From contig JASEGB010000005.1 of assembly GCA_030018275.1 (NCBI GenBank), positions 1-35,858 on the forward strand: a stretch of DNA of 35,858 bases, read 5' to 3'. Origin of the DNA: Actinomycetota bacterium (GTDB lineage Bacteria > Actinomycetota > Aquicultoria > Subteraquimicrobiales > Subteraquimicrobiaceae). The translations under genes were made by a program, and so were the position numbers. Shown piece by piece: positions 6,783 through 35,858 of the stretch. The notes under the pieces were generated by a model. The model had not been told where the DNA came from. It searched no databases and saw only the letters and a list, made by a program, of their open reading frames with translations. The first letter of the stretch is position 1; every line of letters begins with the position of its first letter.

Positions 6783-7241
6783 ATGATTAAATTTAAAAAA
6801 ATAGAGCATGATCCAAGAGGGTTTTTCCCAGAGCTCATTGAAATGTTCAAGCAAGATGAAGAGGTCATAGCGGTTTATCTTTTCGGCTCGTATGCTACAG
6901 GGAATATTGGTCCTTTAAGTGATGTGGATATAGCAGTTTTATTGAATCCGAAGTTTCCCTCCGAATCTTATTTTGACAAAGAACTTGATTTGCTTTTGAA
7001 GACAAGCCACATTTTAAGGACAGATGAAGTCAATTTGGTCATTCTCAACCGCGCTCCTTTCTCCCTTGCCTATGGCATCTTTAGCGAAAACAAATTGCTT
7101 TTTTGCCGAAATGATCTGGAAAGAGTTAAATTCGAGACCAAAATAGTCGATGGATATCTGGATTTTAAACCACTTTTAGAGGAGAACTATCGCTATCTTT
7201 ATCGTCGCGTTAAGGAGGGGAAGTTCGGTGTTAAATCTTGA
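6783..7241 (+). CDS. mntA: MntA-type adenylyltransferase antitoxin
   Basis: This is a 152-residue minimal nucleotidyltransferase with the exact GS-X10-DXD signature in LFGSYATGNIGPLSDVDIAV. The C-terminal helix-rich part (YLDFKPLLEENYRYLYRRV) is usual for MntA. In type VII toxin-antitoxin systems MntA transfers AMP groups to a tyrosine of HepT and silences its RNase. GGAGGAGGAGAA precedes ATG 6783. The 3' end overlaps the next gene by 14 bases, so translation is coupled. The key Asp pair is intact. Confidence 0.88.
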   Translation: MIKFKKIEHDPRGFFPELIEMFKQDEEVIAVYLFGSYATGNIGPLSDVDIAVLLNPKFPSESYFDKELDLLLKTSHILRTDEVNLVILNRAPFSLAYGIFSENKLLFCRNDLERVKFETKIVDGYLDFKPLLEENYRYLYRRVKEGKFGVKS

Positions 7242-7650
7242 GATCGTCAATTCTCGTCTCAAAAGACTGGAGAAATGTGTCCAGAGGCTCAAATCAGTGG
7301 CGATGGTGGATAAGGAAAGATTTCTAGGAGATGAAGACCTCCAAGATAAAGCAGAGCGCAATTTCCACATCGCCATCGAGTGCTGTTTGGATATTGGAAA
7401 CCATATCATATCCGCCTTAGGCTTTAGAGCGCCCAAAAATTATGGGGACATTTTTAAAGTGCTTGGAGAGGAGAAAATTTTACCGGAGGAATTTTCTAAA
7501 ACTCTAGGAAAAATGGCGGGTTTCCGGAACATTTTAGTCCACGATTATCTTGAAATAGACCTAGGGGAAGTTTATAAGAATTTACAAAAATTGGAGGATT
7601 TTATCGTATTTGTACAGTACATTTTAGAGTTTATCGAAAAAGAGAGATAG
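7228..7650 (+). CDS. hepT: HepT-type HEPN RNase toxin
   Basis: This 140-residue all-helical HEPN protein carries RNILVHDY near residue 107, which is the R-X4-H-X-Y motif. Arg and His form the RNase site, and the Tyr is the residue adenylylated by MntA in characterised systems. GTG 7228 has AAGGAGGGG six bases upstream and overlaps mntA. Together with MntA this is a complete type VII toxin-antitoxin pair. It ends eight bases before the next GT4 gene, so it now lies within a glycan operon. Confidence 0.9.
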   Translation: MLNLEIVNSRLKRLEKCVQRLKSVAMVDKERFLGDEDLQDKAERNFHIAIECCLDIGNHIISALGFRAPKNYGDIFKVLGEEKILPEEFSKTLGKMAGFRNILVHDYLEIDLGEVYKNLQKLEDFIVFVQYILEFIEKER

Positions 7651-15622: not shown

Positions 15623-17899
15623 GTGAGGCGAATCGGAATTTACGGATATTTTTGTCAAACCAGAAAAGAGAAGTTGATGCTGGCACTCACAGTCTTCTTT
15701 TTCATTTTTTCATCCTTGTTAATTCCCTCCAACGCTAGAGCTGTTCTTGAATCACCCCTTGGATTGGAATGGATGTTTACTAAAAAAGGGCAACTTTATT
15801 CTCCTCCAATCGCCAAGAATTTGATGGTGTATGTAGGCACGGACAATGGTGTTCTCTACGTTCTTAAGGGCTTCACGGGGAAGCAAAAATGGCGATACGA
15901 CACCCATGAGGATATTCGTTGTTCCCCAGCGGTCGAGAAGGGTGTAGTTTATCTGGGTTTAAATAATGGCAGCTTGATCGCTCTGGATGCCTTCACTGGC
16001 GAAGAGAGGTGGTTTTATGAGGAAAAAACTTCAGGTCCATTGCCGACGGAATTTGTTTATTACTATGCCCCCACTCCCGCTGTGATGGGTGATACCGTAG
16101 TACACAGTTCCCCCGGGGGGAAGGTAAATGCCTTCGATGCTGAAACAGGTAGCCTTAAATGGAGCCACAGCACCAAAAGTTCCTTTGTCTCCGCCCCCAT
16201 AGCTGCGAATGGAATGGTCTATGTCAGTTCCATTGATGGCAAACTCCAAGCTCTTGATATCGATTATGGGGAGATAATATGGAGCTATGCTGACTTGATA
16301 AGTTGTGATTGTTCGCCGGCCGTCGGCGGCGACATGGTATTTCAAGGTTCAGCTGATGGTAAGATATATGCTTTCGATGCCAAGAGTGGGAGGATAATAT
16401 GGAGGCACCATAGCCTTGAGGTTGCCAAATGCATTATCGTGGGCAAGAACATGGTCTATTTTGGTTCCTCCAATGGCAATCTCCACGCTCTCGATATGGA
16501 TACGGGACAGCTGAAATGGAGATTTATAACGGAAGGGTCGGTGCTTTCCACTCCAACGTTTGATAATGAGTTGATTTATCTGGGCTCAAATGACGGGAAA
16601 TTATATGTAATCGGTGCATATACCGGTGATTTACAATGGGTTTATGACACTAAAGGCTTTTTCGTGACTTCCACTGCCATTACCCATGAAATGTACTATG
16701 TGGGAGCGACCACGAAAGAAGATGGCTTTCCAACAATCGTTGTGACCGCCTTCAAGAAGGGCAGTTTTCCGGGCACCGAAATTTGGGTTGGAGGCCGGAA
16801 AGAGGAGACCTTTGCTACGTGGCTTATAAACTATATAAGTAGCGGGACCAGAGGGGTACTTCGGGGGAAGGAGCTAAGTATGCATCGGATATTGGATATC
16901 GCTTCCTATCCCCTGGGTTTTCCGGTACATTTAATGGGGCGTGCCTCTACCGAGTTTGTGGAGTCATGGGAGCTTCCCCATCACTGTGGGAGAATCAATA
17001 AAATGTTCATCGAACTCGCCTCGCTTATCTCCATAAGCGGCTACATAAGTTCTCTCGTCCTTACGCCTCTTAATGCTGGGGCAAGCATCGGTTTTCTCAT
17101 TTATACTTGGATTATAGCAATGCTCCTCTCCGTGCTTTACTTTCAGGCGAAAGGGTTACTTTTTGCGGGCATATCCGTGAATAACATCAGTCGGATGAGA
17201 ATCGATCTAAAAGAGCTCTTTATTTTAATCATCCGCAACTATCCTTTAATCTTAATTTATTTCTTGATGACAGGTGCAGGACTTTTTGCTTGTGCGCTGT
17301 TAACCGGTTTATTATCTTACCTTCCCCGGTTTTGGTTTTTTGTTCTTCTGGGTTTATCTCTATGGGTTTTGACCATCTTGATTGGTAGTCTCGGTCGGGG
17401 CTTGGGACTCGCCCTTTATAAAAGTCGTGAAGAAAAAATTCCTTTGAAACTGATCGGTGCACTCAGGGAAATTAAAGGTTGTTTTGGCAGATTGATCGTC
17501 TTTTCCCTCTGGCATTTTTTCCTGCTCATCCTAATTTCCTTTGGCTTAAGCATGGGTCAGGCACGGGGTTCCTACCCTATGATCATCGGAGGTTTCATTG
17601 GTACCATCATTTTTGTTTTAACCGTTTTCATGGATGCCTCGGTTGTTTTGGAAGACAGAGGTCTTCCCGATGCACTTCAAGCCAGCATCCACTTCTCCCT
17701 TCGCAATTTACCATGGGTAATAATATACTTAACCTTGGTGGGTTTAATTTTACTTTTGATTTCCATTCCTTTGAATTTCCTTCGGTCTTGGATGGGAATG
17801 ATGATTTCGGTTTCCTTATCCTCACTGATCTGCGCTCTTCTCGTCCAAATCCATGCCTTTTTCTATTTATCCTGGGGAAGGAAAGTTGAACAAGGATAA
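15623..17899 (+). CDS. PQQ-type beta-propeller fused to a polytopic membrane domain
   Basis: This is a 758-residue two-part protein. A signal peptide ends SNARA near residue 40. Residues 45-390 hold about seven to eight PQQ/BamB-like blades, each with a GxxxALDxxTGxxxW core (for example GSLIALDAFTGEERW). From about 470 to 745 there are six or seven hydrophobic helices, with the last part resembling membrane domains of the DUF975/YciC kind. GTG 15623 gives a basic n-region; ATG 15677 is an alternative without it. It overlaps the next gene, so it is part of the rex-adjacent operon. No dehydrogenase residues are apparent, so a scaffold or sensor role is more likely than PQQ catalysis. The fusion is unusual. 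Confidence 0.8.
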   Translation: MRRIGIYGYFCQTRKEKLMLALTVFFFIFSSLLIPSNARAVLESPLGLEWMFTKKGQLYSPPIAKNLMVYVGTDNGVLYVLKGFTGKQKWRYDTHEDIRCSPAVEKGVVYLGLNNGSLIALDAFTGEERWFYEEKTSGPLPTEFVYYYAPTPAVMGDTVVHSSPGGKVNAFDAETGSLKWSHSTKSSFVSAPIAANGMVYVSSIDGKLQALDIDYGEIIWSYADLISCDCSPAVGGDMVFQGSADGKIYAFDAKSGRIIWRHHSLEVAKCIIVGKNMVYFGSSNGNLHALDMDTGQLKWRFITEGSVLSTPTFDNELIYLGSNDGKLYVIGAYTGDLQWVYDTKGFFVTSTAITHEMYYVGATTKEDGFPTIVVTAFKKGSFPGTEIWVGGRKEETFATWLINYISSGTRGVLRGKELSMHRILDIASYPLGFPVHLMGRASTEFVESWELPHHCGRINKMFIELASLISISGYISSLVLTPLNAGASIGFLIYTWIIAMLLSVLYFQAKGLLFAGISVNNISRMRIDLKELFILIIRNYPLILIYFLMTGAGLFACALLTGLLSYLPRFWFFVLLGLSLWVLTILIGSLGRGLGLALYKSREEKIPLKLIGALREIKGCFGRLIVFSLWHFFLLILISFGLSMGQARGSYPMIIGGFIGTIIFVLTVFMDASVVLEDRGLPDALQASIHFSLRNLPWVIIYLTLVGLILLLISIPLNFLRSWMGMMISVSLSSLICALLVQIHAFFYLSWGRKVEQG

Positions 17900-22848: not shown

Positions 22849-23814
22849 TTGAAGAAACGGCACTTTTTAATCATCGTCCTCATCATCTTGCTCCTAATTT
22901 TGGCTGCTCTTCTCTATCTTTACCTCACTCTCGTCCGTCCCTCTCAAAGGGTTGTAACCCCAAAAATAAAGGGAATCGAGCACCTATTTTCCATATATGG
23001 ATATGGAGACAAGCCCGATCAGCTTCTTTCAAGACCCAGCGGTGTAGCCGTGGATGAGAAGGGGAATATCTACATAGCTGACCAGTATAATGATCGAATT
23101 TTGGTCTTCGATAAGAAGGGGAAGTTCCTGTTTAAGTTCGGCGAGAGGGGAAGTGGTCCCGGTCAATTTGAGCGTCCCATGGGTATAGCTGTAAGTCCCA
23201 AAGGGCGCATTTATGTAACCGATAGACAGCAACACAAAGTCCTCATCTTCGATTCCAAGGGAAAATTCATCAAGGAATTCAGGGTAATGATGCCCCTAAT
23301 CCCCAGGGTTGCTCACAATAAGCTTTATCTCACCACTTATGGTCACGTCATAATCTATGATCTTGACGGTAATGAGCTGGCAAAATGGGGAAGGAGGGGA
23401 AGGGACAAAGGAGAGTTTGATTTTCCCAATGGAATTGTCATTGGGAACGAGGGCAATGTTTACGTCTCCGACTCAAACAATTTAAGACTTCAGGCTCTCG
23501 ATAAAAATGGTGAGGTCTTGTGGGTTGTTGGTAAGCCTCCTAAGGATATTTGGGCTCTCGAGCGACGCTTTGGACTCCCCGCGGGACTTGCCATAGATGA
23601 AAATCAAAAGCTCTATCTCGTAGATGCCTTCCATTATTCTATAAGGGTGTTAACGAATAAAGGCAAAGAGCTGGCAAACCTAGGTGGTGAGCCGGGGGAC
23701 AAACCCGGACAGTTTTATTATGCCGCAGATATTGCCTATGCTGGCGATGGTGTTTTTGTGGTTTCTGATAAATATAACGATAGAGTTCAAGTGGTGAGAA
23801 TAACCGTTGAATAG
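22849..23814 (+). CDS. Anchored NHL-repeat six-bladed beta-propeller
   Basis: This 321-residue protein has a membrane anchor (residues 7-29) and six NHL blades. Typical blade cores are GVAVDEKGNIYIADQYNDRI, GIAVSPKGRIYVTD and GIVIGNEGNVYVSDSNN. NHL propellers bind proteins or other ligands. The enzyme-type metal residues of amidating lyases are not obvious. TTG 22849 has TGGAGGAAGC directly before it. It sits between an anchored and a secreted cytochrome, and a paralogue at 29753 is also next to cytochromes. That repeated pairing suggests it contacts or positions cytochromes outside the cell. Confidence 0.9.
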   Translation: MKKRHFLIIVLIILLLILAALLYLYLTLVRPSQRVVTPKIKGIEHLFSIYGYGDKPDQLLSRPSGVAVDEKGNIYIADQYNDRILVFDKKGKFLFKFGERGSGPGQFERPMGIAVSPKGRIYVTDRQQHKVLIFDSKGKFIKEFRVMMPLIPRVAHNKLYLTTYGHVIIYDLDGNELAKWGRRGRDKGEFDFPNGIVIGNEGNVYVSDSNNLRLQALDKNGEVLWVVGKPPKDIWALERRFGLPAGLAIDENQKLYLVDAFHYSIRVLTNKGKELANLGGEPGDKPGQFYYAADIAYAGDGVFVVSDKYNDRVQVVRITVE

Positions 23815-29317: not shown

Positions 29318-29752
29318 TGTAGTGCGGGGGCTCGTCCCCCGCAAATTTTTCTTGGGCGGGCACGGAGTCCCGCCCCTACAGTAGGATTTTGTCCTGTAGA
29401 AGCAGACCTTTAGGTCTGTTAATAACAGGTCTAAAGACCTGTTTGTACGAGGGTTCATCTCCCGCTAAATATTTATTGTGGCGCTTTAGGCTTATTTTAC
29501 AGGCGAACATAATCAGGTGCAAATTGGGAAATTCTAGTAGCGTGGGAGTTCATCTCCCGCAATTTTTCCTTCATTTGGGCGGGCACAAGAAGACTTAGGT
29601 GGCGGAGTGCTTCTGCTAATGGTCTCTGCTAACAGGTGAGCCTTGCTTTGAGCTTTTTAATCCTGCTATCATAGGCACGAATAAAATACGGCCAATCACT
29701 TTAGGAGGCAACAAAAATTTCTACGAATCCGAGAAGTTTTCAGATACGGACT
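29318..29752. repeat. Intergenic region with multiple REP-like hairpins
   Basis: No gene is visible between the divergent minus cytochrome operon and the plus NHL gene. Stems include GCGGGGG/CCCCCGC (29324-29342), GGGCGGG/CCCGCCC (29354-29375), a CAGACCTTTAGGTCTG palindrome and ACAGGTCTAAAGACCTGT just after it (29404-29440), and GTGGGAG/CTCCCGC (29542-29560). The same units occur at 24932 and 23839. GGAGG at 29704 is too far from the next start to serve it. Promoters for both genes should lie here, but none is convincing. Confidence 0.65.
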
Positions 29753-30721
29753 TTGTGGAAAGTAATGTTGAAATTTTCGCAAAAAAGATGGGCTTTTATA
29801 ACTGGATTTTTGTTGTTGGCGGTATTAGCCATCATCTTAGTTTATCTTTTTTATAGTAAGCCCCCTGTGACTGGACTTCCCGAATTTCTCTTCAGTATCC
29901 AAGGGAAAAGTAAGGATGCCAGGCTGGTGAACCCACTACGTACACCCCTTGGAGTAGCTATTTTTCGCGACAGAGTCTTCGTTGCGGATAGTGGGAATTC
30001 TGAGATAAAGATCTTCAATTTGGATGGACGCTTCTTATCCTCCTTTCCAGTGACCACAATAGCAGTCGAGAAACCAACCACCTATCCTGTGGGAATTACT
30101 ATAGACCGTGATGGAAAAATCTATGTCTCGGAAATTCGCTCCCAAAAGATTATGGTCTTCAATTTCCAGGGAAGATTTCTCTACAACTTTCCCAGGGCAA
30201 AGAATTCAAGGGCTCTAGTTAAGCCTCTTGCTTTGGCGTTTGCAAACAATAAACTATATGTGACCGATATTGGAGATCAAAGCGTGAAGGTATTTGACAA
30301 GAGAGGCAAATTATTACTTAAATTCGGGAAAATGGGAAGTAGGAAGGGGGATTTTCTATATCCAAATGGAATTGCTGCCTTGGAAGATGGCAGAATTCTG
30401 GTAGCCGATTCAAACAATAGACGAGTGCAGGTCTTTAATTCCCGAGGAAAATTCCTGAGTTTTCTTGGGGGATCTAAAGTGCTTTTTAGTCTTCCTCGAG
30501 GAATAGCCATCGATGGCGAGGAAAGAATACACGTCGTAGATACTTTTTCACGAGCGGTTTTTGTTTTTGATGCCAAGGGAGAGCACCTCTTCTCTTATGG
30601 TGAGTTCGGTGAGGGCAAAGATCAATTTGGTTTCCCCAACGGGATTGCCATCTCCACTTCCGCCCGGAAAATTTATATTACGGATCGAGGGGAGAATTCC
30701 ATCCTAGTCTGGCGCTATTAG
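29753..30721 (+). CDS. Anchored NHL-repeat beta-propeller, second copy
   Basis: This 322-residue protein has one membrane helix (about 15-33) and six NHL blades, for example GVAIFRDRVFVADSGNSEIK, GITIDRDGKIYVSE and GIAALEDGRILVADSNN. It is a paralogue of the NHL protein at 22849 with the same anchor and length. TTG 29753 is the first start; ATG 29765 four codons later is equally possible, with GGAAAG close to it. It lies between the NapC-type operon and the FN3 cytochromes, repeating the NHL-next-to-cytochrome arrangement. A binding or scaffolding role outside the membrane is inferred. The stop lies inside an AGGGGGA/TCCCCCT hairpin (30720-30736) that may weaken read-through. Confidence 0.88.
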   Translation: MWKVMLKFSQKRWAFITGFLLLAVLAIILVYLFYSKPPVTGLPEFLFSIQGKSKDARLVNPLRTPLGVAIFRDRVFVADSGNSEIKIFNLDGRFLSSFPVTTIAVEKPTTYPVGITIDRDGKIYVSEIRSQKIMVFNFQGRFLYNFPRAKNSRALVKPLALAFANNKLYVTDIGDQSVKVFDKRGKLLLKFGKMGSRKGDFLYPNGIAALEDGRILVADSNNRRVQVFNSRGKFLSFLGGSKVLFSLPRGIAIDGEERIHVVDTFSRAVFVFDAKGEHLFSYGEFGEGKDQFGFPNGIAISTSARKIYITDRGENSILVWRY

Positions 30722-30850
30722 GGGGACTGTCCCCCTCGATGTTCCTTCCTGCGAAAATATCTCTTTTGACCAATAATTCGAATTCATTAAAAATTGCGCT
30801 TCCCTTTAAATATAAAAAGTAATATATATTTGTATTAAGAGGTGGTATCA

Positions 30851-31093
30851 ATGGCGAGCCGGAGAGTTAGAATTAGTGCAACCATTTCATCCGAACTCTT
30901 AGAGGAGTTGGATTTGGAAGCGAGGGAGAAACATAGGAGCAGGAGTCAGCTGCTCGAAGAATGCATTAAAATCTGGCGCGGGCTTAAATTACGTGAAGAT
31001 ATGAAAGAGGGATATCTTGAGAGAGTTAAACCGGATAGAAAACTTGCGGAAGAGGATCTTGCTGCTCAAGTTGAAACTTTACCCGAATGGTAA
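30851..31093 (+). CDS. Ribbon-helix-helix antitoxin of a MazF pair
   Basis: This 80-residue protein has an N-terminal ribbon-helix-helix fold: RRVRISATISSELLEELD, then a basic helix and SRSQLLEECIKIW. The acidic tail EEDLAAQVETLPEW should wrap the toxin. ATG 30851 is favoured over GTG 30842 because AGAGGTGG precedes it. The gene ends six bases before the toxin start region. It is expected to repress its own operon; AT-rich sequence at 30800-30840 could hold the promoter. Confidence 0.85.
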   Translation: MASRRVRISATISSELLEELDLEAREKHRSRSQLLEECIKIWRGLKLREDMKEGYLERVKPDRKLAEEDLAAQVETLPEW

Positions 31094-31099
31094 ATCCAA

Positions 31100-31465
31100 A
31101 TGCTCCGTAGAAGAGGGATGTCGGTGAGAGAAATCAAACGCAGTGAGATTTATTGGGTGAATTTTAGTCCCGTGAAAGGATCAGAACAGAGAGGCAGAAA
31201 ACCAGCACTTGTTGTTCAAAACGATATTGGCAATAAATATGCGTCCACGACCATCGTGGCAGCCATCACTTCCCAGGTGTCAAAGAGAAAATATCCCATG
31301 AATGTGATTCTTCCTGAAGGTATACTTCCGAAAAAATCGGAGGTCTTATGTTCTCAACTGAGGACCATTGATAAAAGAAGATTGGAAAAGTACATATGCA
31401 CATTGGATGAAGCAATAATGAAGGAAGTCGATGAAGCTTTACATATAGCTCTTGAGCTCGATTGA
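31100..31465 (+). CDS. mazF: MazF/PemK-family mRNA interferase toxin
   Basis: This 121-residue protein has the MazF core EIYWVNFSPVKGSEQRGRKP, LVVQNDIGNKYASTTIVAAI and a SEVLCSQLRTIDKRRL segment. The conserved Arg of the first loop and the Ser/Thr of TTIVAAITS form the RNA-cleavage site. It cuts mRNA at short single-stranded sequences when released from its partner. ATG 31100 is the first start; ATG 31118 or GTG 31124 (GAGGG upstream) would give a length closer to the family norm. It sits between the NHL gene and the FN3 cytochromes. Confidence 0.9.
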   Translation: MLRRRGMSVREIKRSEIYWVNFSPVKGSEQRGRKPALVVQNDIGNKYASTTIVAAITSQVSKRKYPMNVILPEGILPKKSEVLCSQLRTIDKRRLEKYICTLDEAIMKEVDEALHIALELD

Positions 31466-31763: not shown

Positions 31764-33788
31764 GTGACTGAGAAAAAGTTGCATATTCATTTTCTGTTCA
31801 ATAAAAAAGTGGGTTTTTTGATCGCCCTTTCCATTTTAATTCTATTTCTCCTTTTTAACAGCATCGCTTTTGCCATCAATCCACCCACGGGTTTGAATGT
31901 AACCGCTGAAGCGCCTCCAAGCTGCAATATCAATCTTGCCTGGAATCCACCTTCTCTTCTTCCCGGGGAGGCGGTGGACCATTACAGGGTCTACAGAGCT
32001 CTTTCCACAATCACAGATGCCAACAAGGGAGCGGCGGATCTCATAGCTCCTAAAGTACTAGCCACAATCTATACCGATTCCACAGGTATTCCTGGAGAAA
32101 CCTATTACTACCAGGTCACCGTGGTTGATACCTTGGGCAATGAAAGCCCGGTTTCCATAAATGTCATTAATGATCATGCCACCGTATCAGGGAGTGAAAA
32201 CCCACATGATAGCTACAGTGATTTTTCAAACCTTTGTCGGGATTGCCATCGCATTCATCTCGCCCCGGGCTCAACTCTGGTATTTCGTCGAGAGAGCGAA
32301 AAGGAAGTCTGTTTTGTTTGCCACGATGAAACCGGGAGTCCCTACAACATTAAGCAACTTTTCCTTCACCCCTCTCGTCATTCCATCGAACCCGAGACGG
32401 AACCGGATGGAGTGACCATGAAGTACTGTCACGATTGTCATTCACCACACAGCAATAAGGATTTGAGACCAAAATTAATCAAGGACACCATCAGAGGACA
32501 ATCGGTGACGGGAAATAATAACACCGTGTGCTACGCCTGTCACGAGAACATTTCTTATCTCTTACTCCCGAACGATGCTTGGTATGGAAAAACCATCTAC
32601 AATAAGACCGAGCACTATCTGGGGGGAACCGCTGCTTTAACGACATATCCCGGCACCACATATGCCACCGGACTCTGCTTGAATTGCCACGATCCTCATG
32701 GCTCTCCTTATAACGATATAAGGCGCAACGATAGAAATGATTTATGTAAAGCCTGTCACGACGATCCATCCATCACTTTACCTGCAACCTGTTCCTATCG
32801 GGGGATGGCTTGGTATTTACTCACGCCCCATTATTCCTCAATTTATGCGGTATGGCCAAATCCCGATGATACCGGTGCCTGGCTCACGGGAGGTGCCACC
32901 TCGGGCGAGTGCATCAACTGCCACAATCCCCATGGGAGAAGCGATAGCATAACGGGTCCCAATGATGATCTCTATCCGAAATTGTTGCTCAAATGGGAAT
33001 GGAATAATAATAGCCAGGAGGAGTTCCTCTGCTATGGTAAAGATCCTGCCCAGAAAGCATGTCATGCCGCAACCACGGGTTCGGTCAGTGGTATCAATAT
33101 TTATGATGGTTTTACCAAGGGAACAGCTACCTATAATGGTCCACCTGGTTCGCCGAAGATAAATACCCGTCATGACATCGGTTTAGATGCCCAGAATTAT
33201 AGTGGAGCCAAAGTCGAATGTATCCATTGCCACAACCCCCACATAAATACGGGATATTATGATTATGACTACTCCACCGCCCCACCAACTCTAATTCGGA
33301 GTAAATTTATCGATCCCGATAATCGAGCACAATTGTTCTCGGGCACCATGACCGTTGATTATACCACGGGGACGGTCACTCTGCCGGGCTATAGGGAATT
33401 TTGCAACAAATGCCATGATAATGTTTATCCGTCTGGAGTAACCGCTCCCACTGTAACTTTAATTAATGTTAAAGAAGCCTACATTAAGGACTATCACGGG
33501 GACAAAGCGGGTACAGGCGATGGAATGATGGACGGTGGAATGGGTGCCATAAAACCACCTTATCAAAGGGGAATGGCTGCTCTTCCCTGCACGGATTGTC
33601 ACGATCCCCATGGCTCTAAGAATATCTATCACATTAGGGAGAGCATCACCACGGATCAAACGTACTCCATCACTGTGACCACAGGGGTTGGCGAGCCTTG
33701 GAACCTATGTCAAGCTTGCCACACTAAAGGACATAAGTGGCACCATAACTGCTTTAGCTGTCATTACCACGGAAGTGGAAGGTTCTAG
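31764..33788 (+). CDS. Secreted FN3-domain multihaem cytochrome
   Basis: This 674-residue protein has a signal peptide ending SIAFA near residue 37, then one fibronectin type III domain (INPPTGLNVTAEAPP to TLGNESPVSI, about 38-133). A long cytochrome region starts at residue 158. Canonical motifs are CRDCH, CFVCH, CHDCH, CYACH, CLNCH, CKACH, CINCH, CIHCH, CNKCH, CTDCH, CQACH and CFSCH, twelve in all. A CX9CH (CYGKDPAQKACH) lies between the seventh and eighth. DPHGS and NPHGR pieces mark doubled-CXXCH units. It has no membrane anchor, so it should be exported. The FN3 domain could bind glycan or other proteins. GTG 31764 lacks a close ribosome site. Two good terminators follow. Confidence 0.92.
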   Translation: MTEKKLHIHFLFNKKVGFLIALSILILFLLFNSIAFAINPPTGLNVTAEAPPSCNINLAWNPPSLLPGEAVDHYRVYRALSTITDANKGAADLIAPKVLATIYTDSTGIPGETYYYQVTVVDTLGNESPVSINVINDHATVSGSENPHDSYSDFSNLCRDCHRIHLAPGSTLVFRRESEKEVCFVCHDETGSPYNIKQLFLHPSRHSIEPETEPDGVTMKYCHDCHSPHSNKDLRPKLIKDTIRGQSVTGNNNTVCYACHENISYLLLPNDAWYGKTIYNKTEHYLGGTAALTTYPGTTYATGLCLNCHDPHGSPYNDIRRNDRNDLCKACHDDPSITLPATCSYRGMAWYLLTPHYSSIYAVWPNPDDTGAWLTGGATSGECINCHNPHGRSDSITGPNDDLYPKLLLKWEWNNNSQEEFLCYGKDPAQKACHAATTGSVSGINIYDGFTKGTATYNGPPGSPKINTRHDIGLDAQNYSGAKVECIHCHNPHINTGYYDYDYSTAPPTLIRSKFIDPDNRAQLFSGTMTVDYTTGTVTLPGYREFCNKCHDNVYPSGVTAPTVTLINVKEAYIKDYHGDKAGTGDGMMDGGMGAIKPPYQRGMAALPCTDCHDPHGSKNIYHIRESITTDQTYSITVTTGVGEPWNLCQACHTKGHKWHHNCFSCHYHGSGRF

Positions 33789-33968: not shown

Positions 33969-34184
33969 TAGCTCCATTTTTTAAGAAAGTGAAAAGCGAT
34001 GCTTGAATAAATTGAATACTGAAAATGCGGTAGAAAGTGATACGGTTTTTAATTTCTAGTGTTATTAATTGGGGAAATCTGTCAAATTTGTCGAGCCTAA
34101 CGTTAAAGGATACTTTGAAAAACAACGATAATATGGATGGAAGTTAAAAAACATAATCCAAAAGGATTTTTGGGGAGAAATTTG

Positions 34185-35858
34185 ATGCATTCAAAGTTAC
34201 TAAAGCATGCCAAAAAAACTTTTGTTCTTCTTTTTGTTGGTGTTTTTGTTCTTGGAGCATTATTCCTATTTGTGTCACCCGCTTTTGCTATCAATCCACC
34301 AACAGGTTTGAATGTTACGGCTGGAGCTTCTCCCAATATCAATCTTTCCTGGACAGCTCCAGGGGGCCAAGACCACTACAAAGTTTATCGGGCTTTATCC
34401 ACTATTACCGATGCCAATAAACCTGCAGCAAAGCCTCTTTCCGACAATGTAACCACTGAAAGCTACACCGATTCCACTGGTATTCCAGGAGAAAGGTACT
34501 ATTATCAAGTAACTGCGGTTGATGCCGCTGGTAATGAGAGTGGCGTCTCTACTGGTGTTATCAATGATAATGCCATTGTGGTGGGGAGTGAGAACCCACA
34601 TTACAATTATTCCAACTTAACCAATTTTTGTCGTGATTGTCACCAGGTTCACTTGGCGGAGAGCAATGTCAATGTATACAGGCGCACCCCTTCCATAGAT
34701 ATCTGTTATGTCTGTCACGACGGTACGGGAAGTACTTATAATATTCAGAATACCTACAAGAATCTGGCGGCTCATGATACTCAATTGACCAATCCAGCCT
34801 CGGACATTAAGTGTACTCGTTGTCACTATCCTCATGATGCTCCTTCCCCTACCAGATATACTTGGTTGACCAAAAAGAGTGAAGAGAATCTATGTTACGA
34901 TTGTCACACCACTATCCAGACCAATTTTGCCAAAACATCTCATCATGCTATTACTGGTACTACAGGAGATGGCTTGACGGGGGCAAAGGTTGAGTGCACC
35001 AGTTGCCATGGTCCCCATACTGTGAAAACAACCGCTAAGACATCTGATCCTGATAACACCTACAACCTTTCTGGCGAAGTGGGTGCACATACAAACTTTT
35101 GCATAAAATGCCACGATGGTTCTCCACCCACGCAGACCTGGGGTAGTTCAACCACCTTTGTTCCCTATACCATTACCTTCCCGACCGTCTCTTCTTATCC
35201 CTTCTTCCCGGGTTGGAACAAGTCTGCCTACACCAGTGCCGCTCACTACACAGTCCTTACTGGCGACAAAAGAGCTTGCACCAACTGCCATGAATTTCAT
35301 GGAACCGACTATTCTCGTCTATTAAGAGGTGGTGAAGATACAACTACGTCTACCACGGGAACGTGCCTTTACGACCCCTGGGGTTCGGCATGTCATGTGA
35401 ATGGTAACAGTTATGGTGCCCCGGATGTCAAAACTCCTTTAATCAAGAAGGGTGTTACCTGGACCGCAAATTCCGCGTGGAATGCGCCGGATGTGGGCAA
35501 CTATGCAGAACCTGCTTTTGCTGATTTAGATGGTGATGGAGACTATGATCTGTTGATCGGAGCCTATGATGGTATAAGTTACGCCTACAAGAACACTGGA
35601 AGTGCAACCAGCCCCATCTGGACTGCAAATTCCTCCTGGAATGCCCCGGATGTAGGTAGTTACGCCGCACCCGCCTTCGCCGACTTAGATAACGATGGCG
35701 ATTATGACCTACTAATTGGCGAAGCAAGTGGCATAAGCTACGCCTACAAGAACACTGGAAGTGCAACCAGCCCCACCTGGACCGCCGAATCCTCTTGGAA
35801 CGCTCCAGATGTGGGCACCTACGCAGTACCAGCCTTCGCCGACTTGGATAACGATGGT
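34185..35858 (+). CDS. FN3-multihaem cytochrome-FG-GAP/VCBS fusion, 3' end outside window
   Basis: This open frame of 558 codons runs to the window end. A signal peptide ends VSPAFA (residue 35), and an FN3 domain (36-125) matches that of the previous gene. The haem region from residue 149 has CRDCH, CYVCH, CTRCH, CYDCH, CTSCH, CIKCH and CTNCH plus a CX8CH (CLYDPWGSACH, 394-404). From residue 425 come FG-GAP/VCBS propeller repeats, each with a calcium-loop-like DLDGDGDYDLLIG core. FG-GAP propellers are common in adhesins and integrin-like surface proteins. GGGGAG lies eight bases before ATG 34185. The fusion suggests a cytochrome that attaches to a surface or matrix. How many further repeats or haems follow is unknown. 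Confidence 0.92.
   Translation, partial: MHSKLLKHAKKTFVLLFVGVFVLGALFLFVSPAFAINPPTGLNVTAGASPNINLSWTAPGGQDHYKVYRALSTITDANKPAAKPLSDNVTTESYTDSTGIPGERYYYQVTAVDAAGNESGVSTGVINDNAIVVGSENPHYNYSNLTNFCRDCHQVHLAESNVNVYRRTPSIDICYVCHDGTGSTYNIQNTYKNLAAHDTQLTNPASDIKCTRCHYPHDAPSPTRYTWLTKKSEENLCYDCHTTIQTNFAKTSHHAITGTTGDGLTGAKVECTSCHGPHTVKTTAKTSDPDNTYNLSGEVGAHTNFCIKCHDGSPPTQTWGSSTTFVPYTITFPTVSSYPFFPGWNKSAYTSAAHYTVLTGDKRACTNCHEFHGTDYSRLLRGGEDTTTSTTGTCLYDPWGSACHVNGNSYGAPDVKTPLIKKGVTWTANSAWNAPDVGNYAEPAFADLDGDGDYDLLIGAYDGISYAYKNTGSATSPIWTANSSWNAPDVGSYAAPAFADLDNDGDYDLLIGEASGISYAYKNTGSATSPTWTAESSWNAPDVGTYAVPAFADLDNDG
35457..35858 (+). repeat. 159-bp tandem repeats encoding FG-GAP/VCBS blades
   Basis: Units start at 35457, 35616 and 35775 with a constant 159-bp (53-codon) period. 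Each begins TWTA or IWTA and contains WNAPDVG, PAFADLD and YAYKNTGSATSP. The third is cut by the window end. High similarity suggests recent internal expansion. Confidence 0.9.

Follow-up and report, generated by a model that had tools for sequence, protein, structure and literature searches.

Multihaem cytochromes with accessory domains are already known in ANME, in OmcZ and in Dethiobacter. The large multihaem cytochromes of ANME carry S-layer, peptidase-M6-like or pectin-lyase-like domains (PMC9012536), and the OmcZ preprotein has one long-spaced haem motif, with 14 residues between the cysteines, besides accessory Ig beta-domains (PMC9473688). MtoA-like cytochromes of Dethiobacter possess C-terminal Ig-like domains, and NHL genes are found in their clusters (PMC10376724). 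In addition, cultured Anaerosomatales have 17-18 multihaem cytochromes, and one of these organisms, which reduces Fe(III), forms clusters on ferrihydrite (PMC9686372). How Gram-positive and subsurface bacteria keep their electron-conducting cytochromes in place against minerals, matrix or partners is largely unexplained.

The locus described here belongs to a window of 35,858 nucleotides, which is the whole stretch of DNA analysed and part of contig 5 (C5) of a 1.49-Mb genome of an Actinomycetota bacterium from the deep subsurface. Its main features are collected in Table 1. The gene that crosses the window end is read, with a probability of about 0.6, as a secreted 14-haem cytochrome of an extracellular electron-transfer (EET) cluster, in which an FG-GAP/VCBS propeller with calcium loops, placed in the side loop between haems 8 and 9, would be a docking module. 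The whole gene encodes 1013 aa, including Ns, in a single frame and is ordered as signal peptide, FN3, haems 1-8, FG-GAP array and haems 9-14. An in-frame ATG is also present at 34137, with the ORF open from there to the window end (34137-35858), but the start at 34185 is more likely, having GGGGAG 8 nt upstream and the signal peptide directly after it.

Table 1. Features of the cytochrome gene and of two nearby genes, in window positions
Feature	Position	Strand	Basis or remark
NHL-repeat beta-propeller protein, same cluster	29753..30721	+	Pfam
FN3 and multihaem cytochrome with 14 CH motifs, without FG-GAP	31764..33788	+	neighbouring gene
5' part of the FN3-multihaem cytochrome gene, in which the FG-GAP array is internal	34185..35858	+	ORF runs past the window to C5:37178
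Predicted signal peptide MHSKLLKHAKKTFVLLFVGVFVLGALFLFVSPAFA	34185..34289	+	translation; ribosome-binding-like GGGGAG upstream
Fibronectin type III domain (aa 54-134)	34296..34538	+	Pfam fn3 E=1.9e-6, over cut-off
Haem motifs 1-8 (first part of the cytochrome)	34629..35396	+	in six homologs, haem motifs stand at all eight aligned positions
FG-GAP/VCBS array, start	35460..35858	+	2.5 units of 53 aa lie within the window, with DxDxDG loops

A first-pass annotation of the window had proposed a fusion of FN3, cytochrome and FG-GAP parts, and this fusion is real, as fn3, Paired_CXXCH_1 (E=1.2e-18), FG-GAP_3 (PF13517; E=2.8e-11, 44.3 bits against a cut-off of 26.9) and FG-GAP (E=1.2e-7) are all over the curated Pfam cut-offs in one frame. 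Several multihaem profiles also exceed their cut-offs in the window ORF, and a few others lie below, among them MtrC/MtrF (PF22113), which reaches 26.9 bits against a cut-off of 30. The FN3, haem-motif and DxDxDG-repeat content of this ORF is far above chance. The gene was also expected to be larger beyond the window, and past the edge it indeed continues with more FG-GAP units and six further haem motifs.

Regarding the haem sites, the seven or eight motifs counted in the first pass correspond to seven CXXCH, at aa 165, 190, 226, 253, 287, 322 and 381, and one CX8CH at aa 410-420 (CLYDPWGSACH, 35364-35396), which is haem 8 and at whose position all six aligned relatives have a canonical CXXCH. 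The second cytochrome part has its six motifs in the order CXXCH, CXXCH, CX14CH, CXXCH, CX3CH and CX5CH, the CX14CH being haem 11 and the last two haems 13 and 14 (all three in L005:7700-8150). At positions 8 and 11, relatives have CXXCH. Haem attachment at the odd CX8CH, CX14CH, CX3CH and CX5CH motifs is predicted. All 14 sites are common to seven aligned full-length proteins, including FG-GAP-free homologs, which were taken from the same class with the C-terminal part as query. The protein possesses the attributes of a multihaem c-type cytochrome, namely a signal peptide, multiple CXXCH and every site kept in homologs. The nearest solved structures by sequence, found as profile matches, are 6r2q_A, 7tfs_A and 6i5b_A, presumably MtrA, OmcE and OcwA, respectively. 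A C-x9-CH resembling the CX8CH of haem 8 is present in the neighbouring gene 31764-33788. Many core proteins end on a tyrosine a few residues past the last haem motif, such as the window gene (...YPRYYSNY), L044 (...YTHAY) and L057 (...YTNIY).

As seen in the alignment, the array is placed between DVKTPLIKK and HPTLTISNAHKDTE, i.e., from haem 8 to haem 9, where the six aligned homologs have a short stretch and the window protein carries the array with no net loss of core residues. This loop was surveyed by scanning 84,980 species genomes, with added searches of the own class, the phylum, Coriobacteriia and Desulfuromonadia. Counted before the Desulfuromonadia search, its length is two-peaked among 133 distinct proteins, being 36-88 aa in 102 and 362-448 aa in 31, the window's own included, with none between. 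The pairing of PF13517 with a multihaem core, raised by the first-pass annotation, recurs throughout, since FG-GAP_3 matches all 30 gap-free long loops (E<=0.01); some matches fall below the curated cut-off because the propeller is degenerate in a large Anaerosomatales clade. Classical DxDxDG units are found in L057 (seven DxDxDG-like loops), L269, L271 and L189; in Anaerosomatales most of these loops are lost, and therefore calcium is not a universal feature. Carriers of known lineage are all Actinomycetota, mostly Anaerosomatales/Coriobacteriia. As the same insertion is found in about 30 related bacterial proteins, it is, judged from their sequences, a real design and not a wire with a terminal adhesive head.

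In the probable congener Candidatus Subteraquimicrobium carltonvillense (G001 and G065, with identical matches), the orthologous FN3 start is present at the same place with 86% DNA identity, and its contig stops before haem 1, so that it is uninformative on the insert. A scan of viral contigs with the L057 insert found no relatives. A second insertion site, of 332-1051 aa, was observed in the Coriobacteriia relatives L106, L108, L069, L081, L094, L130, L234 and L254, located upstream of the haem-9 anchor by four or five motifs; the L108 insertion has a DUF1349 (lectin-like) match below the cut-off.

In Desulfuromonadia, 30 of the 33 loops read are 38-72 aa long, and the other three (L304, L313 and L340) reach 274-300 aa and hold a different domain of ~230 aa without a Pfam family. 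It may tentatively be proposed, with the odds somewhat against it, that the haem 8-9 loop is a natural grafting site where lineages independently placed folded binding domains while the electron path stayed uninterrupted, with FG-GAP propellers in Actinomycetota and the ~230-aa domain in some Desulfuromonadia as parts of the same pattern and the core as a docking chassis. If so, this widespread 14-haem core would serve in general as a chassis by which the wire is docked to specific surfaces.

For the window protein itself, we infer a docking role of the propeller from the architecture. The secretion signal would lead to export of the cytochrome, and the 14 conserved haem sites, the clean propeller insertion at one loop and the conserved layout would be compatible with a propeller standing beside the haem chain and holding the wire to a surface, a polysaccharide or a partner protein. 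Electrons would go on from haem 8 to haem 9 alongside the propeller, in a haem chain that is presumably unbroken. Docking or attachment is what FG-GAP propellers usually do, and this role is favoured because of that usual function, the CBM/Ig-like domains in sister proteins, the cytochromes, NHL proteins and polysaccharide genes around the gene and the mineral-associated, cultured Fe(III)-reducing member of Anaerosomatales. One such sister is the core paralogue on contig 4 of the same genome (G000:C4, L039:6131-10150, minus strand), which has N-terminal CBM96 and bacterial Ig domains and is likely, from these domains, a polysaccharide-binding cytochrome; moreover, relatives of the core carry Big_5 or DUF1349 (lectin-like) domains. 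The nested propeller, inserted without haem loss, represents a concrete and separable candidate docking module that may be expressed alone, cleanly deleted or moved, with the insert-free cores as natural "minus" controls, and the haem 8-9 loop marks a tolerated spot for attaching domains to cytochrome wires.

An account judged unlikely is that mobile repeat modules were simply tolerated in a permissive surface loop and have little function of their own. It would explain that the same loop takes another domain in L304, L313 and L340, that relatives live without the insert and that the window's units of 159 bp are near-identical, which hints at a recent array expansion. However, an insert of ~430 aa has been kept in a 24-row Anaerosomatales clade with a conserved length of 412-448 aa, which argues for its maintenance.

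Concerning the fold, a low-confidence model of the L057 insert by itself (pLDDT 50, pTM 0.56) consists almost wholly of beta structure, and its top PDB matches in Foldseek are beta-propellers: ITFG2 in KICSTOR, SEC13 and CRTAC1, of which ITFG2 and CRTAC1 are FG-GAP proteins. By sequence, integrin alpha-V and ITFG2 are matched weakly, and the full-length AlphaFold model of L057 (pLDDT 33) was not used. The propeller would probably have seven blades. Beta-propellers coupled to c-haem are catalytic in cytochrome cd1 and quinohaemoproteins, and CXXCH chains can feed an active site, so the insert could in principle be a catalytic or cofactor-bearing module and the protein an enzyme, not a docked wire. 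This is improbable, as the inserts match FG-GAP/integrin-type propellers and not the PQQ or haem-d1 types, and only six columns are invariant across the 30 inserts, with no obvious catalytic set among them.

The history of the insertion was studied on unrooted trees of the core from which the loop had been taken out, so gains and losses are not separable on them. The carriers are not one clade on these trees: a 26-row clade unites the Anaerosomatales type with L057/L269, L271 is sister to FG-GAP-free Coriobacteriia and the core of the window protein is placed with cytochromes of its own class that lack FG-GAP. In AU tests on a 29-row subset of the full 92-row tree, a single origin of the carrier cores as one clade was rejected (p=5e-57; p=0.0019 without L271). 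Because the host cores are not one clade, the propeller was either gained more than once at this site or moved by recombination. When the halves of the window protein were treated separately, joining the N half to L057/L269 within the Anaerosomatales FG-GAP clade was rejected (p=0.008), this half siding with its own class. For the C half, joining the same clade was not rejected (p=0.17-0.23), and its own class gave p=0.26. For this gene, instead of a repeated gain, the propeller and the C half may have arrived together by recombination.

The array of the window gene is built of tandem units of 53 aa (159 bp), all with DxDxDG loops of the DLDGDGDYD type, confirming the calcium loops described in the first pass. 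The window end is the exact start of a run of 97 Ns inside these repeats, and past it the same frame continues with at least two complete FG-GAP units up to about C5:36300, followed by the second cytochrome part; five units are visible in the window gene, besides the gap. The units flanking the gap are 88-91% identical in DNA, above the neighbours on one side, and for units 3 and 4, to the left and right of it, the identity is 91% over the readable part. This near identity explains why the assembly broke at the repeats and argues for one array. Whatever the N count, the missing DNA must be 37+159n bp, and with n=2 the blades would number seven and the haem 8-9 loop would measure ~413 aa, which falls by this arithmetic within the 405-448 aa of gap-free relatives.

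An assembly join had been named in the first pass as a result that would speak against the fusion, and a gap is indeed present, but the fusion stands. It is very unlikely that the 97-N join is a scaffolding artefact linking two different repeat-bearing genes. The gap does sit within repeats and may differ from its nominal length, the N half joins cytochromes of its own class without FG-GAP and the best BLAST matches of the C half are the FG-GAP cytochromes L269 and L057. Nevertheless, the C half is equally compatible with its own class, the flanking units are alike and this gene is the only PF13517 locus in its genome. Moreover, the two halves join at haem 8 and haem 9 of one core with an agreeing frame, and the identical layout is found on the gap-free contigs of L057, L128 and L129.

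A cytochrome with a C-terminal adhesin-like head, as the window read alone would suggest by stopping within FG-GAP repeats, is scarcely credible and is refuted for the assembled gene, since the frame goes on to six more haem motifs and a stop and the propeller is internal in every complete homolog bearing the insert. The sorting signal looked for in the extended gene is missing: at the C-terminus of the full translation (...RYYSNY), LPXTG, a transmembrane helix and other sorting signals are all absent. The protein is thus distinct from a surface adhesin with a terminal binding head and a cell-wall anchor. From the earlier image of a wire with an attachment head, the layout fails, as the array is internal and the C-terminus haem-bearing, and the attachment role survives as the best guess for the propeller.

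In its neighbourhood, the first part of the gene 31764-33788 shares 68% DNA identity with the beginning of the FG-GAP gene, and the homologous FN3 that starts it has E=0.0016, below the cut-off. The cluster in the window further includes several NapC/NirT-type and c7-type cytochromes, a Rex-like regulator, TPR proteins and polysaccharide biosynthesis genes. The FG-GAP cytochromes of L128 and L129 have NHL genes immediately upstream and, on the downstream side, a gene for an L,D-transpeptidase. PQQ-type and NHL beta-propeller proteins are scattered through the cytochrome cluster at 15623-17899, 22849-23814 and 29753-30721, and therefore propellers exist there both standalone and within a cytochrome. 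The interval 30842-31465, which separates the NHL gene from the cytochrome pair, contains a small ORF of 83 aa for a putative antitoxin together with a MazF/PemK-like toxin gene, and among the polysaccharide genes there is a Polbeta nucleotidyltransferase and HepT-like pair (6783-7650) with the typical MntA/HepT toxin-antitoxin layout. Dispersed short hairpin repeats were noticed at 29340-29580, e.g., GTAGAAGCAGACCTTTAGGTCTG... and GTGCGGGGGCTCGTCCCCCGC..., a family with 23 other partial matches in the same genome and dozens in congeneric genomes and with no match in Rfam.

The open literature searched yielded no description of an FG-GAP propeller seated between two haems at a recurring site, which is in this sense new: open-access searches for FG-GAP/VCBS with a multihaem cytochrome turned up an anammox neighbour gene and otherwise unrelated papers, and many characterised cytochromes with this layout, named in the first pass as a result that would speak against the observation, were not encountered there. 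The insert resembles other FG-GAP/VCBS propellers (PF13517 and PF01839, with integrin alpha, ITFG2 and CRTAC1 as kin) in its DxDxDG loops and units of ~45-60 aa, seven of them in L057. However, those propellers stand alone or in adhesins, whereas here the propeller is nested within a multihaem cytochrome. The signal peptide, dense CXXCH and EET gene neighbourhood are shared with extracellular cytochromes of the Paired_CXXCH/c7 type such as OmcE, MtrA and OcwA, from which this protein differs by its 14 haem sites, the odd spacings CX8CH, CX14CH, CX3CH and CX5CH and the ~400-aa propeller between haems 8 and 9.

Compared to OmcZ, one CX14CH motif and accessory beta-domains are common features, but OmcZ has eight haems, its long motif at haem 1 and accessory domains that are C-terminal and cleaved off. 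With 14 sites, CX14CH at haem 11 and no C-terminal Ig, the window protein falls outside the OmcZ family. Similarly, the MtoA-like cytochromes of Dethiobacter combine an accessory beta-domain with a multihaem cytochrome and NHL genes in the cluster, their Ig-like domain being terminal in contrast to the internal propeller. Finally, the ANME cytochromes are archaeal and very large, with S-layer or pectin-lyase folds, and neither FG-GAP nor a common insertion site is reported for them, yet they share with this protein a haem chain joined to haem-free domains, which are thought to fix the chain in an extracellular layer or to carbohydrate (PMC9012536).
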